From contig CAMYJU010000014.1 of assembly GCA_947258795.1 (NCBI GenBank), positions 988-57,790 of the forward strand: 56,803 bases of DNA, in the 5' to 3' direction. Position numbers and translations under genes: made by a program. This DNA comes from an uncultured Gammaproteobacteria bacterium. GTDB lineage: Bacteria > Pseudomonadota > Gammaproteobacteria > DRJJ01. Below the pieces are notes generated by a model. It worked only from the letters and a program-made list of their open reading frames with translations, was not told the DNA's origin and ran no database searches. Positions 16,169-23,200 of this stretch are shown here, piece by piece (within the stretch, counting starts at the first letter, position 1; every line of letters starts with the position of its first letter).

Positions 16169-16362
16169 GTTACTTGTTAGTATCTGTCAGCCTGCCTGGG
16201 TACTGTTAATGCCGCTCGACTCAGGCGCAGACCACCCTACCTGAAGCCGGATGGTGGCGCAACGCATGCGTACATACCTTACGTTGCAGGCATAGACAAC
16301 GGCTCGCAACAACCTGAAACGCTTCATCCTGAACCGAAGGCAGCCAGGCTGGCTATGAATAA

Positions 16363-16384
16363 TGAATATTATCTTGAATATTCA
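16363..16384. promoter_or_regulatory. Palindromic operator upstream of tetR
   Basis: TGAATATT (16363-16370), six spacer bases, then AATATTCA (16377-16384): a perfect inverted repeat of 8-base arms. The same 22-bp layout recurs at 17055-17076 before the RND permease gene. It is followed directly by the 12-base palindrome CACAGATCTGTG (16383-16394). A site here would let the TetR protein repress its own gene, provided tetR starts at 16409. Confidence 0.65.
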
Positions 16385-16408
16385 CAGATCTGTGCTTTAC
16401 TGGATGAC

Positions 16409-17008
16409 ATGAGCACGACCGTCGCAAAACATGAGGAAAGTGATACCGCCAGCCAGATTCTGGATGCGGCCGAACAGCGCTTCAGAACCTATGGTTATAA
16501 CAAGACGACCATGGCGGAAATCGCAAACGATGTCTGCATGTCGACCGCGAACCTGTATCGCTACTTCACCAATAAGCTGGAAATTGCCGCCGACTGTGCC
16601 CAACGCTGTCTGGGTAAGCGCGCCGAGCAACTCAGGGCAATCGTCAACCTGGACAATATCAGCGCCGCGGACAAGCTCGAACAGTACTTTCTGACAATCG
16701 CCCGCTACACCTACCAGGAAACTCATGATAACTATAAAATCAATGAGTTAGTAGGACAAATTATTGCAGAACGTAAGGATATCGTACGCTTGAAAAACAA
16801 ACGGGAACAGGCCTATATCGCCGAGATTCTGGCTCAGGGCAACATTTCCGGGGAATTCAATATCAGCGATGTGATTGATACGGCAGAAGTCATCCATGCC
16901 AGTCTGGCACTATACCAGACGCCGTTATTCATGAGTTTGTATGAGCTCGAGACCCTGGAAAGTCTGGCGGCACGCACTGCCCGGCTTATCATTAACGGAC
17001 TGAAGTAA
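16409..17008 (+). CDS. TetR/AcrR family transcriptional regulator
   Basis: A 199-residue regulator when read from the ATG at 16409. The open frame extends to an ATG at 16355, but that would place the palindrome at 16363-16384 inside the gene, and 199 residues is the usual family size. The helix-turn-helix is at about residues 33-52 (TTMAEIANDV...STANLYRYFTNK). The C-terminal ligand domain is generic, so the effector cannot be predicted. It precedes, on the same strand, a permease operon whose promoter carries a copy of the same palindrome, so it probably controls that operon and itself. Confidence 0.88.
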   Translation: MSTTVAKHEESDTASQILDAAEQRFRTYGYNKTTMAEIANDVCMSTANLYRYFTNKLEIAADCAQRCLGKRAEQLRAIVNLDNISAADKLEQYFLTIARYTYQETHDNYKINELVGQIIAERKDIVRLKNKREQAYIAEILAQGNISGEFNISDVIDTAEVIHASLALYQTPLFMSLYELETLESLAARTARLIINGLK

Positions 17009-17023
17009 TCAACGAAACAGTTA

Positions 17024-17076
17024 TGGTCAATGACTAAATTACTCACTATAAATGTGAATATTTAATAAATTATTCA
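17024..17076 (+). promoter_or_regulatory. Promoter of the RND operon with overlapping TetR-type operator
   Basis: TGGTCA (17024-17029) and TATAAA (17047-17052) are separated by 17 bases, a plausible sigma-70 promoter. Immediately downstream, over the expected transcription start, lies TGAATATT-six bases-ATTATTCA (17055-17076), the same 22-bp layout as the tetR palindrome with one mismatch in the right arm. The ATG of the permease is 32 bp further on, with AGGAGGG as ribosome binding site. A repressor bound here would block transcription. Confidence 0.6.
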
Positions 17077-17107: not shown

Positions 17108-19453
17108 ATGCACAGACTAGAACAGGCATACAGCCGCTGGGTGATGAACCATCGCCTGCTGATTATCGTCAGCACCCTGGTCCTGGTGGCACTGGTTGCC
17201 AGGGGCATGGGTAACCTGGAGTTCACCAACAACTACCGTGTATTTTTCAGCCAGGATAACCCGGAGTTACTGGCATTCGAGGCGCTGGAGAAGACCTATA
17301 GCAAGAACGATAATGTCCTGTTTGTGATCACGCCGAAGGACGGTAAGGTGTTCACACGTGAGATCCTTACCGTCATCAAGGACCTGACTGACAAGGCCTG
17401 GCAGATACCCTATTCCACCCGGGTTGACTCGATTACCAATTACCAGCACACCGAGGCCATGCTCGAGGACGACCTGAAGGTCGGCGACCTGGTCGAGGAC
17501 CCGGCCAGTCTGACACAGGCCGATCTCGACAAGATCAGGCGGGTCGCACTGAATGAACCCCTGCTGAAACACCGCCTGATTTCGCCTGATGGTAAAACCA
17601 CCGGTGTCAACATCACGATACACCTGCCTGGCAAGAATCTGGCCACCGAAAACCCGGAGGTGGTTGCGTTTGCGCGAGACCTGGCCGCACAGGTTCGTGA
17701 AGCCAATCCGGACATGGAAGTTCGCCTGACCGGCATGATCATGATGAATGCTGCGTTCAACGAGGCCTCGATGAACGATATGCAGTCATTGATCCCGCTA
17801 AGCTATATCGTCATGTTTGTGTTTCTGGGCTTTCTGCTGCGCAGTATTACACCGACTATCAGCACCTTCCTGGTCATTACTTTATCCATCATCACAGCCC
17901 TGGGTATCAGTGGTTATATCGGTTTCCCGGTGACCCCACCATTGGTGTCTGCGCCAACCATCATCCTGACCGTGGCGATCGCCAACTCGGTACATATCCT
18001 GGTCACCTTCCTGCATGAAATGCGACGCGGTGTAGCCAAGCTGGACGCGATGAGTGAGAGCCTGCGCATCAATCTGCAACCGGTATTCCTGGCCAGCGTG
18101 ACCACCGCGATTGGCTTCCTGAGCATGAATTTCTCGGAGGTACCACCCTTCCAGCATCTCGGCAACACCGTTGCATTCGGTGTGCTGGCATCTTTCGTCT
18201 ACAGCACAACCTTTCTGCCCGCCGTCATTTCCTATCTGCCGGTACGCGTCAAGGTGCAGGAGCAGGATGACTACCATATGATGGCCAGGCTGGGTAATTT
18301 TGTGGTCGCCAAACGCCATTTTCTGTTATGGGGGATGGTTGTGGTTGTCGCCACCCTGGTTTCCTTCCTGCCCCGTAATGAACTGAACGATGTGTTCGTC
18401 GAGTATTTCAACGAGAACGTGGAATTCAGGCGCGATGTCGATTATGCATCCGAACATCTGAGCAGCACCTATGTAATCGAATACTCCCTCAAATCCGGCG
18501 AGTCAGGCGGGATCAGCAAACCTGACTTTATGGCCGAGGTTGAGGCGTTCAGCAACTGGTACCGGCAGCAGCCAGAGGTCGAACACGTCAACACGCTGTC
18601 CGATACCATGAAACGCCTGAATAAAAACATGCACAATGACGATCCCTCCTATTACAAGGTGCCGGAGGAACGCGACCTGTCTGCACAGTATCTGTTGCTG
18701 TATGAAATGAGTCTGCCCTATGGCCTGGACCTGAATAACCAGATCGATATCGAGAAATCCTCTACCCGCATGCTGGTGACAACCGAAATACTGTCAAGCA
18801 ATCATATTATCGATCTCGGCCAGCGCGCCGATGCCTGGCTGAAGGCCAATGCGCCCAATATCGTCGAAGGCATGGGCTCAGGAACCACGATGATGTTTGC
18901 GAATATCGGCAAGCGCAATATCATCAGCATGCTCGGCGGCACCACGCTGGCGCTGGTGACGATTTCGTTCATCCTGGTGCTGGCGTTCCGCTCGATCAAG
19001 ATGGGTATGATCAGCATGGTCCCGAACCTGGTACCGGCCGCGATGGGCTTTGGCCTTTGGGGCATCCTCGTTGGTGAGGTGGGCCTGGGACTGTCTGTCG
19101 TTAGTGGTATGACGCTCGGTATCGTGGTTGATGACACGGTCCATTTCCTGAGCAAATACCTGCGCGCCAGGCGCGAAGGCAAGCACGCACCGAGTGAAGC
19201 GGTCAAGTATGCGTTCAACACCGTAGGCCGTGCACTACTGATCACCTCGATCGTGCTGGTTGCCGGGTTTATGGTCCTGGCCCTGTCGGATTTCAAGATG
19301 AATTCCGGCATGGGAATACTGACCTCCATCATTATCTCACTGGCACTGATTGCCGACTTCTTGTTACTACCGTCATTACTGATGAAAATCGAGGAAAAAC
19401 GAAATGAAGATATGGACACCGTTACTGGCCAGTCTGACCCTGCTTCCGCTTGA
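17108..19453 (+). CDS. RND superfamily (MMPL type) permease
   Basis: A 781-residue inner-membrane protein with the two-fold RND layout: a transmembrane helix near residues 17-36, a periplasmic loop to about 225, five helices with the MMPL/sterol-sensing-like core (for example LSYIVMFVFLGFLLRS), then a second helix, loop and helix bundle repeating the pattern. ALGISGYIGFPVTPP and the GIVVDDTVHFLSKYLRARREG stretch resemble hydrophobe exporters such as HpnN and MmpL rather than tripartite drug pumps. Substrate is unknown, likely a lipid or other hydrophobic molecule. The last 50 bp overlap the next gene, which encodes a LolA-like protein. Confidence 0.87.
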   Translation: MHRLEQAYSRWVMNHRLLIIVSTLVLVALVARGMGNLEFTNNYRVFFSQDNPELLAFEALEKTYSKNDNVLFVITPKDGKVFTREILTVIKDLTDKAWQIPYSTRVDSITNYQHTEAMLEDDLKVGDLVEDPASLTQADLDKIRRVALNEPLLKHRLISPDGKTTGVNITIHLPGKNLATENPEVVAFARDLAAQVREANPDMEVRLTGMIMMNAAFNEASMNDMQSLIPLSYIVMFVFLGFLLRSITPTISTFLVITLSIITALGISGYIGFPVTPPLVSAPTIILTVAIANSVHILVTFLHEMRRGVAKLDAMSESLRINLQPVFLASVTTAIGFLSMNFSEVPPFQHLGNTVAFGVLASFVYSTTFLPAVISYLPVRVKVQEQDDYHMMARLGNFVVAKRHFLLWGMVVVVATLVSFLPRNELNDVFVEYFNENVEFRRDVDYASEHLSSTYVIEYSLKSGESGGISKPDFMAEVEAFSNWYRQQPEVEHVNTLSDTMKRLNKNMHNDDPSYYKVPEERDLSAQYLLLYEMSLPYGLDLNNQIDIEKSSTRMLVTTEILSSNHIIDLGQRADAWLKANAPNIVEGMGSGTTMMFANIGKRNIISMLGGTTLALVTISFILVLAFRSIKMGMISMVPNLVPAAMGFGLWGILVGEVGLGLSVVSGMTLGIVVDDTVHFLSKYLRARREGKHAPSEAVKYAFNTVGRALLITSIVLVAGFMVLALSDFKMNSGMGILTSIIISLALIADFLLLPSLLMKIEEKRNEDMDTVTGQSDPASA

Positions 19454-20186
19454 GTTGCCTGCACAGACACCTGAAGAGAAAGGCCTGGCCATCGCCATGG
19501 AGGCCGACAAGCGCGATACCGGCTGGGGCGACATCAAGACCGAACTGTTCATGGTCCTGCGTAATCGTCAGGGCCAGGAAAGCAAACGCAGGATGCGCAG
19601 CAAAATTCTAGAGGTGGATGGCGATGGCGACAAGAGCCTGATCGTTTTCGATCACCCGCGTGATATCAAGAACACTGCATTCCTGAGCTACACCCATGCA
19701 CTGAAGGCAGATGACCAGTGGCTGTACCTGCCCGCCCTGAAACGGGTAAAACGCATATCATCAAACAACAAGTCCGGACCATTCATGGGTAGTGAGTTCG
19801 CCTATGAAGACATCTCTTCACAGGAAGTCGAGAAATACACCTATAAATTTATAAAAGACGACAAAGTTAATGGGCGCGATGCATTCGTCATCGAGCGCTA
19901 CCCGGTTTACAAACATTCTGGATACACACGTACTGTAGTATGGGTAGACAAGGAAATGTATCAGGCATTGAAAACTGTATTCTATGACCGCAAAGACAGC
20001 CTGTTGAAAGAACTGGTACTCAATGATTACAAGCAGTACCTGGGAAAATACTGGCGCCCCTCAAAAATGACTATGGTCAACAAACAGAATGGCAAGAGCA
20101 CTGACCTTGAATACAAGGGCTATGAGTTCAACACCGGGTTGAAGGATAGCGATTTCAATCGCAATACCCTGAAGCGTACCCGCTAA
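19404..20186 (+). CDS. Outer membrane lipoprotein-sorting (LolA-like) periplasmic protein
   Basis: A 260-residue protein with a signal peptide of about 21 residues (ending LPAQ) and the features of the COG2834-type LolA-like family: MVLRNRQGQESKRRMRSK, LIVFDHPRDIKNTAFL, DDQWLYLPALKRVKRIS and GPFMGSEFAYEDI. LolA-like folds carry acyl chains in a hydrophobic half-barrel across the periplasm. Members of this family are commonly encoded next to MMPL-type RND permeases, as here. The start lies inside the permease gene (50-bp overlap). It presumably accepts cargo from the permease and delivers it towards the outer membrane. Confidence 0.85.
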   Translation: MKIWTPLLASLTLLPLELPAQTPEEKGLAIAMEADKRDTGWGDIKTELFMVLRNRQGQESKRRMRSKILEVDGDGDKSLIVFDHPRDIKNTAFLSYTHALKADDQWLYLPALKRVKRISSNNKSGPFMGSEFAYEDISSQEVEKYTYKFIKDDKVNGRDAFVIERYPVYKHSGYTRTVVWVDKEMYQALKTVFYDRKDSLLKELVLNDYKQYLGKYWRPSKMTMVNKQNGKSTDLEYKGYEFNTGLKDSDFNRNTLKRTR

Positions 20187-20188
20187 CC

Positions 20189-21400
20189 TTGAAGATTGCT
20201 TGCAACAAGGCGCTTTGGAGCCAGCTGCTGTTGCTTTCCATACTGACGGCACACAACGCCGTTATGGCAGGTGAATGGAGCGGCTACCTGGGAGCCGAGG
20301 CCCGTATCTTTCTGGATGACCCTACGGATCCCCGTCAACAAGGCAACACGCTGTCATTTGTCGCTCAGCCGGAGTATTACACCGAATGGGATGATGGCAA
20401 TCAAAGCCTGTTATTCATCCCGTTTGCGAGGATAGATCAGCATGATACCGAACGCAGTCATGCCGATATCCGTGAACTGGTCTGGCTCAAGGCAGCTGAC
20501 ACCTGGGAAGTGCATATTGGCATCGGTAAGGTTTACTGGGGCGTGACTGAATCACAACACCTGGTCGATATTATCAATCAGACCGACCTGGTCGAAAGTC
20601 CGGATGGCGAGGAAAAACTCGGTCAACCCATGATCAACCTGAGCCTGATTCGCGACCTTGGCATCTTTGATCTGTTTGTGCTGCCCGGTTTCAGGGAACG
20701 GACCTTTCCGGGCATCAAGGGCAGGCTGCGATCCGTACCGCGAATCGACGCAGATGACGCCCTGTATGAATCTTCAAGAAAAAATCGCCATGTCGACTGG
20801 GCATTACGATGGAGTCATACCCTGGGTGACTGGGATATCGGCCTGTCCTGGTTCGATGGGACCTCGCGTGAACCACGCTTTATACCGACGATCAAGCCGG
20901 ATGGTGAATCCGTACTCGTTCCTTTTTATGACCAGATACAGCAGGCAGGACTGGACATACAGGCCACAAAGGAAGGCTGGCTATGGAAACTGGAAGCCAT
21001 TAACCGGCGAGGCATGGGGGAAACCTACAACGCCCTGACGGGCGGTTTCGAATATACAGTCGTTGGCATAGCCAGTACCCAGGCTGACCTCGGCCTGATC
21101 TCGGAATACCTGTACGATGATCGTGATGAACAGGCCCTGAGCCTGTTTCAGAACGATCTGATGCTGGGAACCCGATTGACGCTCAACGACGAACAGTCGA
21201 CCGAGTTTCTGCTGGGCCTGATCACCGATCTGGATGACAGCAGTGAACGATCCTGGTTTATTGAAGCCAGCCGCCGACTTGGAGACAGATGGAAACTGAA
21301 TATCGAGGCGAGAGTACTCTCACTCCAGGACCCGCTCAACCCATTCCACGCGCTTGCGAAAGATGACTTTATCCAGCTGGAGTTGCTAAGGTATTTTTAA
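20189..21400 (+). CDS. Predicted outer-membrane beta-barrel protein
   Basis: A 403-residue protein with a signal peptide (about 1-27, ending AVMA before GEWSGYLG). The rest shows alternating aromatic/polar strand patterns, for example WEVHIGIGKVYWGV and WDIGLSWFDGTS, and it ends in LELLRYF, with the terminal phenylalanine typical of barrel-assembly signals. The start is a TTG at 20189, 2 bp after the LolA-like stop; no ATG upstream of the signal peptide is available. As third gene of the operon it is a candidate outer-membrane partner of the permease. No specific porin family was recognised. Confidence 0.75.
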   Translation: MKIACNKALWSQLLLLSILTAHNAVMAGEWSGYLGAEARIFLDDPTDPRQQGNTLSFVAQPEYYTEWDDGNQSLLFIPFARIDQHDTERSHADIRELVWLKAADTWEVHIGIGKVYWGVTESQHLVDIINQTDLVESPDGEEKLGQPMINLSLIRDLGIFDLFVLPGFRERTFPGIKGRLRSVPRIDADDALYESSRKNRHVDWALRWSHTLGDWDIGLSWFDGTSREPRFIPTIKPDGESVLVPFYDQIQQAGLDIQATKEGWLWKLEAINRRGMGETYNALTGGFEYTVVGIASTQADLGLISEYLYDDRDEQALSLFQNDLMLGTRLTLNDEQSTEFLLGLITDLDDSSERSWFIEASRRLGDRWKLNIEARVLSLQDPLNPFHALAKDDFIQLELLRYF

Positions 21401-21427: not shown

Positions 21428-23200
21428 CTAGTCACCGATATACTCTTCCTCATCATCTTCCTGATCCACCTGGTTGTCCGTATCAGTCCGGGATGCGGGT
21501 TTGCTTGCTGCTGTATCTGCTACGGCCGATCGATATTCAGACTCATACATACCGATATCAGGCGCAAAACCGTTATATGCCAGGCTCAGACCCTGGTTTT
21601 GCGCCCATGACAGTGCCTGATCAACCGTCAGGGTATTCTTTTCATAGTCTATGGAAACAATCCTGGCGGTCTGCTCCTGCCCCTGAAACTGAATAACATC
21701 GCCCTTTTCCCCGGGAATACCGTAACCGTCATAGAAGTAGCTGACATCCTTTACTCTGATCACGGTGCCTTGCCCGGCATCTGTTGTTTGTGTCAAAAAC
21801 GCACCCTTATCGATCAGCGGACTGTCAGCTGCCAGGTGGAAATCGCGCTGTATTGCATTGACAAAGCCAGGGGCCTTCTCGACCGTGTTTTTGATCAGTT
21901 CCGGATATTCCGACTCCCACCATTCAATTTCAGGCTGGGCACCAAATTTGAATCCGGGTTCACGCCCGCCATAGGTCAGCAACCAGGACTCGCCCACCTC
22001 GTTACCATAAATAGCATTATTCAGCAGCTGGAATCCGTCCAGGCGCGCGGTCTTGATCTGCACCGGTTGCCCATCAACCCTGAACACCCACCATCTTGAA
22101 CGCCGGTCATTCGCAACGAAGACATTTTTGGCGAACACATTGTTAATAAAACGGTTGTCCTTCAGGACCTGGCCGGGGGCGATATTGATACCGGCAAATT
22201 TCGTCGCATAAAACACATTATGATAAGTGCGATTACCGGTATTGTTACGGGCCTCATGACCGTAAATGGCAAAACGAATACCCGGCCCGGTCAGGTCATG
22301 AAATTGGTTATGCCTGATAATGCCGTTCTGGCCCGCATATTGTATGCCTGAAAAGGGTGAGGCATTGCCGCTGGATGGTACAAATGCGAAATCATTGCCT
22401 TCAATCAAGTTGTGTTTGGTGGCATTGTATCTTTTAAATCCGGCAACCTTGTGACAATCATAGACTTCCCCGATCTTCTGCCTTTCATTATGGAAGTAGT
22501 TATTCCTGATTACATTAAAATTACCGCAACGTATATCCCATAGTGCATGTCTGGCATAACGAAAAGTATTGTTCTCAACCACATTGTAATCAGAACCGAC
22601 TATCGACATGGCGTCACTGGCATTACCCTGTATCGTATTTCCGGCTACCCGGTTATAACTGGCGTTTCTGAAGAAGATTCCGGTCTTGGAACCACCCCCT
22701 CCATTGGTCGCCTTGCGAAAGGTATTATTACGAATGATGTTATATCTGGCATCCACCAGGTACAGCCAACGGTCGACGTCGTTTACTTCCAGACCTTCTA
22801 TGACGATATACTCCCGGTTGGACAAATCGATCGCGGGACGATGTGGCCCTGTAATAACGACCTTTTCCTTGTCATAATTTCTGTAGGTAATATATTTCCC
22901 TTTTTTACCGGAGGTCTGTGGCGCCAGCTGCTCATGGTAGGTGCCGGCACGGATGAAAACCGTTTCTGCCGGTTTGATGATCGCCGCTACCGTGGAGAAA
23001 CGGCTATAAGCAACGGCATTGCCTTGACTACATTCCCGTTTGACCGGGTCGTATTTGTTACAGACTTCGGCTCCGATATTCTGGTCTACATAATATTCAG
23101 AACTGGCGATAGCAAGTGGGGTATACAGCAGAGCTGCAGCCAGCGACATACCGGTTGCATATCGATAACACCTGCTTAACAATCTTTCCGACTGCTTCAT
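21428..23200 (-). CDS. Secreted right-handed parallel beta-helix protein
   Basis: A 590-residue protein with a signal peptide (about 1-32, ending LAIAS). The core (about 95-420) consists of coils with recurring asparagine ladders, such as NIIRNNTF, NRVAGNTIQGN, NVVENNTF and NVIRNNYF, typical of pectate-lyase-like folds (NosD/Pectate_lyase_3 type repeats). The start FRAGTYHEQLAPQ-like segment (VFIRAGTYHEQL) is the usual first coil. The C-terminus carries an acidic tail (QEDDEEEYIGD). Such proteins bind or cleave polysaccharide; catalytic residues cannot be assigned. It follows the SpoIIE-type phosphatase gene by 28 bp on the same strand. Confidence 0.8.
   Translation of the reverse strand: MKQSERLLSRCYRYATGMSLAAALLYTPLAIASSEYYVDQNIGAEVCNKYDPVKRECSQGNAVAYSRFSTVAAIIKPAETVFIRAGTYHEQLAPQTSGKKGKYITYRNYDKEKVVITGPHRPAIDLSNREYIVIEGLEVNDVDRWLYLVDARYNIIRNNTFRKATNGGGGSKTGIFFRNASYNRVAGNTIQGNASDAMSIVGSDYNVVENNTFRYARHALWDIRCGNFNVIRNNYFHNERQKIGEVYDCHKVAGFKRYNATKHNLIEGNDFAFVPSSGNASPFSGIQYAGQNGIIRHNQFHDLTGPGIRFAIYGHEARNNTGNRTYHNVFYATKFAGINIAPGQVLKDNRFINNVFAKNVFVANDRRSRWWVFRVDGQPVQIKTARLDGFQLLNNAIYGNEVGESWLLTYGGREPGFKFGAQPEIEWWESEYPELIKNTVEKAPGFVNAIQRDFHLAADSPLIDKGAFLTQTTDAGQGTVIRVKDVSYFYDGYGIPGEKGDVIQFQGQEQTARIVSIDYEKNTLTVDQALSWAQNQGLSLAYNGFAPDIGMYESEYRSAVADTAASKPASRTDTDNQVDQEDDEEEYIGD

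Follow-up and report, generated by a model that had tools for sequence, protein, structure and literature searches.

To our knowledge, there are few cases in which it is understood how a hydrophobic molecule traverses the periplasm when no ATP is spent at the inner membrane, and how it gets past the outer membrane. The question is raised here by three contiguous genes in a 56,803-nt stretch of DNA from an uncultured gammaproteobacterium (the window), encoding an inner-membrane MMPL pump, a periplasmic LolA-fold carrier and an outer-membrane barrel: do they form one transport system, in which direction would it work, and what would it carry? The set is compact and conserved, and it comes with natural fusions and a candidate operator, which makes the question testable in one operon.

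Organization of the locus

The three genes are arranged head to tail behind the gene of a TetR-family regulator (Table 1). All four genes are on the + strand. The coordinates given in an earlier, sequence-only reading of the locus are exact, as are the 50-bp overlap of the pump and carrier genes and the 2-bp gap between the carrier and barrel genes; the start codon of the barrel gene is TTG. The families and the AlphaFold models agree with the three compartments assigned in that reading, and the Pfam search of the locus revealed no ABC gene in the module, consistent with the claim that it lacks an ABC ATPase.

Table 1. Features of the pump-carrier-barrel locus (positions in the window)
Feature	Position	Strand	Evidence
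TetR-family regulator, 217 aa as listed	16355-17008	+	PF00440 (TetR_N) E 2.5e-11; PF17935 E 7e-9
Candidate TetR operator 1, TGAATA-N10-TATTCA	16363-16384	.	1 of 2 copies in window and genome
Candidate TetR operator 2, TGAATA-N10-TATTCA	17055-17076	.	before pump gene
MMPL/RND pump, HAE3-like, 781 aa	17108-19453	+	PF03176 E 3e-34, 118.8 bits
LolA-fold carrier, 260 aa	19404-20186	+	PF17131 LolA_like E 2e-65, 220 bits
Outer-membrane beta-barrel, 403 aa, ~18 strands	20189-21400	+	AlphaFold2 model, fold matches, profile links

Genes flanking the trio in the window encode DUF2797, beta-helix, SpoIIE and MFS proteins. The gene of the 590-aa right-handed beta-helix protein (Beta_helix, NosD-like), which looks secreted, is located at 21428-23200 on the - strand, convergent with the barrel gene. 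Scans with consensus promoters and terminators yielded matches at the chance level.

Inner-membrane pump

The pump matches PF03176 in two stretches, far above the curated cut-off of 20.5 bits, and thus belongs to the MMPL family, which has been linked to lipids and hydrophobic compounds. The best NCBIfam match is the HAE3 model TIGR00921, and since its score is below the subfamily cut-off (167.4 vs 351.9 bits), we call the pump only HAE3-like. In 66 relatives, Asp675 of TM10 and His296/His679 are invariant, and the TM4 position is mostly occupied by Asp or Asn. This pattern, taken together with what is known about RND pumps, suggests that the pump is proton-coupled.

Two more specific assignments were rejected, namely the hopanoid transporter HpnN (97.5 of 751.9 bits for TIGR03480, 41 of 1100 bits for NF052374) and BstA, whose model gives 17 of 1400 bits. 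The genome encodes two further MMPL pumps, neither with a carrier or barrel gene alongside. One (G000:C6:43899-45653; L156 3867-6191) is 47% identical to the pump of the window and may share its carrier; the other, of 863 aa (G000:C7:223552-225348; L157 5848-8439), is encoded near fabA-like and fabB-like genes.

Periplasmic carrier

The carrier matches PF17131 with 220 bits against the cut-off of 30, its N-terminus resembles a signal peptide without a lipobox, and several of its strands are amphipathic. The LolA-like fold proposed from the sequence is borne out by the structure prediction (mean pLDDT 90), whose top structural match is 3bk5 from Vibrio parahaemolyticus (Z 34, rmsd 1.3 over 235 residues, 60% identity). 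It is followed by 9tp6, LolA3 from Porphyromonas gingivalis (Z 29.5, 32% identity), and by 4z48, a DUF1329 protein (Z 29.4), classical LolA and LolB scoring far lower (Z about 13). The fold of the carrier is that of 9tp6, a structure with a hydrophobic groove; a cavity of this kind, on which the earlier proposal depended, may be present in the carrier as well.

The carrier is no canonical LolA, as no PF03548 match is found at E 0.1; the canonical LolA gene (PF03548) of this genome sits on another contig, so housekeeping transport of lipoproteins is not the job of the carrier studied here. The current annotation, 'outer membrane lipoprotein-sorting protein', would make the module a second lipoprotein-sorting route, that is, an alternative Lol system, in keeping with the LolA fold. 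We regard this as very improbable, because the genome keeps its own LolA, the module has no LolCDE-type ABC gene, and the pump is an MMPL protein, from a family with lipids and hydrophobic compounds among its known associations. Moreover, LolA3, a protein with the fold and from the family of the carrier, is reported to possess a hydrophobic groove, to bind LolB only weakly and probably to serve a separate function (PMC13103446). These observations suggest a role other than lipoprotein sorting for proteins so annotated through PF17131, at least for those linked to MMPL genes.

Outer-membrane barrel

Neither Pfam nor NCBIfam models match the barrel, nor does any of its 47 aligned relatives score meaningfully against them. 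Membership in the pump-carrier-barrel set gives a place to this family, which lacks a model in both databases. The AlphaFold2 model (mean pLDDT 89.9) has about 18 membrane strands; the N-terminus resembles a signal peptide, and the C-terminal Phe is nearly invariant. The closest folds are those of OprD/Occ porins and of AlgE, which exports alginate (Z about 23 with about 290-320 aligned residues), the likeness being one of fold only, at 6-12% identity. Specific porins mostly import, and this resemblance therefore speaks for uptake, one of the two directions weighed below.

The longest conserved stretch of the barrel, residues 111-148 (WGVTESQHLVDIINQTDL...), may form the loop after strand 5, where porins have their constriction loop, if the strands are counted from a periplasmic N-terminus. 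The motif WG...N..D alone is nonspecific, as 10% of unrelated ORFs satisfy the expression. Searches of PDB sequences with the barrel and with its profile produced no match.

In particular, neither the barrel nor its 47 relatives match the Pfam model of DUF1302 (PF06980). Still, the profile of the barrel family retrieves barrels of 450-500 aa that do match DUF1302. In hhalign comparisons, these intermediates are linked to the family of the window barrel at 98.8% (E 1e-16, 343 columns), and their match to classical DUF1302 reaches 98.2% (E 4e-14), whereas direct profile comparison of the barrel family with classical DUF1302, as with an unrelated barrel, gives less than 1%. Judging by these profile links, the barrel is a remote relative of DUF1302 through intermediates, and Pfam would not count it among the members. 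A relationship to FadL or AupAB was also considered, and no link was seen; AupA is FadL-like according to its own paper.

Conservation and co-inheritance of the three genes

Among 80 loci collected through the barrel, 55 have the MMPL, LolA and barrel genes on one strand, and nine more have the carrier and the barrel, while their pump gene is either located elsewhere or cut off. The remaining loci are contig ends (4/80), another arrangement (2/80) or the barrel alone (10/80). In nine of the 12 genomes with a separated or rearranged barrel (ten barrel-alone, one contig-end, one rearranged), a close carrier is found elsewhere or rearranged. Several Thiotrichaceae and other bacteria have the barrel apart from the pump and the carrier in the same genome, so that a permanent complex of the three is not required. 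The term 'self-contained', used in the sequence-only reading, is therefore too strong.

Co-occurrence was assessed in 56 genomes, for the most part a single one from each family of the class, a close carrier being defined by E < 1e-39. The barrel and a close carrier are found together in 19 genomes, the barrel only in one, an incomplete genome whose barrel gene is located where a contig ends, and a close carrier only in none (Fisher p = 5e-14, an optimistic value given that the genomes are related). Conservation of the barrel beside the other two genes, on which the earlier proposal depended, is therefore observed both in gene order and in co-occurrence.

In five genomes from the order to which the Oceanospirillaceae locus L099 belongs, the pump and the carrier are fused into a single gene of 1050-1100 aa, with MMPL at approximately residues 1-780 and PF17131 at approximately residues 820-1065. 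In all five, a DUF1302-type barrel gene directly follows the fused gene or overlaps it slightly. The adjacency of the trio is not due to chance, and the three genes constitute a conserved set. That they are mere neighbours with no joint function, as the separated barrels of some genomes might suggest, has almost no credibility, being contradicted by the co-occurrence, the fusions and the conserved order in most loci.

The trio is present in sulfur oxidisers, magnetococci and Nitrospirota. One genome (G052) holds both a trio of the window type and an MMPL-LolA-DUF1302 trio (L131 8040-12754) in identical order. On a 23.9-kb Pseudoalteromonas plasmid (NZ_CP118497.1, L111 1028-11926), the MMPL and LolA genes are divergent from the barrel gene and located beside gamma-mobile-trio genes; the module may be mobile.

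TetR-family regulator and candidate operator

The 22-bp palindrome TGAATA-N10-TATTCA has two copies in the 3.36-Mb genome, one before the likely start of tetR and the other before the pump gene, while a reversed control pattern has none. As the pattern was derived from the same two sites, these counts test its uniqueness and are not a prediction. The listed start of the TetR gene is upstream of the palindrome; ATG 16409, downstream of it, fits better and may be the true start. The placement of the palindrome solely before these two genes supports the TetR control assumed in the sequence-only reading.

In the relatives, a TetR gene adjoins or precedes the pump gene in 27 of the 41 loci with room for it, and these regulators fall into three different TetR clusters. 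No shared palindrome pair of this kind is present in 16 relatives with TetR, hence the candidate operator would be specific to the regulator of the window. Apart from TetR, no gene recurs widely around the trio in the neighbourhoods of relatives, and so the neighbours do not indicate the cargo.

Comparison with known systems

The system AmeABCD from Castellaniella defragrans unites in one cassette an HAE3-type RND pump, a periplasmic protein of the LolA superfamily (DUF1329) and a DUF1302 outer-membrane protein (PMC6394551). It differs in having a fourth, YCF48-like protein, AmeC, and no YCF48/COG4447 component is found among the genes flanking the trio in the window. Its barrel is a DUF1302 protein of 605 aa and its carrier a DUF1329 protein of 451 aa, whereas the barrel of the window, at 403 aa, does not match DUF1302 and its carrier is a PF17131 protein of 260 aa; the gene order is barrel-carrier-AmeC-pump in AmeABCD and pump-carrier-barrel in the window. 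Deletion of AmeABCD decreases monoterpene tolerance and increases Nile Red accumulation (PMC6394551). This phenotype, caused by loss of the same three kinds of part and a fourth one, favours export of a hydrophobic molecule.

The opposite direction has been proposed for TOL_3187 (MMPL + LolA) and the adjoining porin-like TOL_3188 from Thalassolituus oleivorans, which have the same parts in identical order, are strongly induced on the n-C28 alkane, and are considered by the authors to be part of alkane uptake (PMC6304351). In this system the pump and the carrier are one protein, and the barrel type is closer to DUF1302, judged on the five similar fused loci and not on T. oleivorans itself. Applied to the window, uptake would mean that long-chain hydrocarbons or fatty acids enter through the barrel and are taken inward by the carrier, the pump being their acceptor; the induction, the five fused genes followed by DUF1302-type barrels and the fold closest to substrate-specific porins all agree with it. 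We nevertheless find it unlikely, as the hosts of the trio listed above are not typical alkane degraders, and RND pumps of known direction are exporters. AmeABCD, too, behaves as an exporter (PMC6394551).

Three other systems resemble the trio in part. The sterol transporters BstABC from Methylococcus capsulatus also combine an RND inner-membrane protein, a periplasmic binder and an outer-membrane-associated protein for a lipid; BstB and BstC, however, are placed in other transporter families by the study of this system, which does not describe BstC as a barrel like that of the window (PMC10942540). In the E. coli aryl-polyene system ApeL/ApeM/ApeN, a lipid-like product is handled by an RND pump together with a LolA-like carrier, and a LolB-like protein takes the place of the barrel (PMC8253772). 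In P. gingivalis, a member of Bacteroidota, there is a TetR-MMPL-'lipoprotein-sorting' operon that contains ABC genes (PMC10434189, PMC10470040); LolA3 would be its carrier.

Related systems are thus already known, while the version in the window and its barrel family had no name. The sequence-only reading mentioned neither the DUF1302 kinship nor the precedents AmeABCD and TOL_3187-3188. New here are this kinship, the barrels directly following pump-carrier fusions, and the two-copy palindrome.

Proposed function and cargo

Taken together, the locus probably encodes a TetR-regulated trans-envelope exporter of a hydrophobic molecule, driven by the proton-motive force, in which a LolA-type shuttle and a dedicated barrel follow the pump. 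The pump would take the molecule from the outer leaflet of the inner membrane or from the periplasm, the carrier would receive it in a hydrophobic groove and cross the periplasm, and the OprD/AlgE-like barrel would be the outer-membrane terminus; both the transfer of the molecule from each part to the next and the outward direction are our inference. In addition to the AmeABCD phenotype, export is favoured by the conservation of the trio, the fusions followed by a related barrel, the carrier fold shared with 3bk5 and LolA3, and the invariant TM10 Asp with its flanking His residues. The induction of the T. oleivorans look-alike and the likeness of the barrel to mostly importing porins count against it.

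A further argument for export comes from two Sulfitobacter plasmids (L113 7176-21041; L112), in which genes for a type I polyketide synthase (PKS), MMPL, LolA_like, UDP-glucose epimerase (galE) and the barrel are in a row, and from aryl-polyene clusters, where a LolA-like protein accompanies an RND pump (PMC8253772). The Sulfitobacter trio consists of diverged homologues (33, 40 and 29% identity), and the linkage to PKS and galE is the sole hint of a cargo in the form of a made (glyco)lipid.

The candidate cargo is an endogenous lipid or polyketide, or a toxic hydrocarbon. The lipid cargo of the sequence-only reading is a guess, its delivery to the outer membrane is conjectural, and the comparable systems with data concern monoterpenes (AmeABCD) and long-chain alkanes (TOL_3187-3188). 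If the module exports, it could be a TetR-induced detoxification pump for solvents or toxins with no endogenous cargo at all. The AmeABCD phenotype (PMC6394551), the palindrome before both tetR and the pump gene, and the small Pseudoalteromonas plasmid are in line with such efflux; the PKS and galE linkage, suggestive of a made product, and the wide occurrence of the trio in chemolithotrophs are not, and we hold it to be somewhat unlikely. Also somewhat unlikely is the broader proposal that the trio is a widespread lipid-export machine, by which many environmental bacteria would furnish their surface with a (glyco)lipid derived from fatty acids or polyketides. Beyond the row described above, the Sulfitobacter plasmids carry genes of glycosyltransferases and an ABC transporter.
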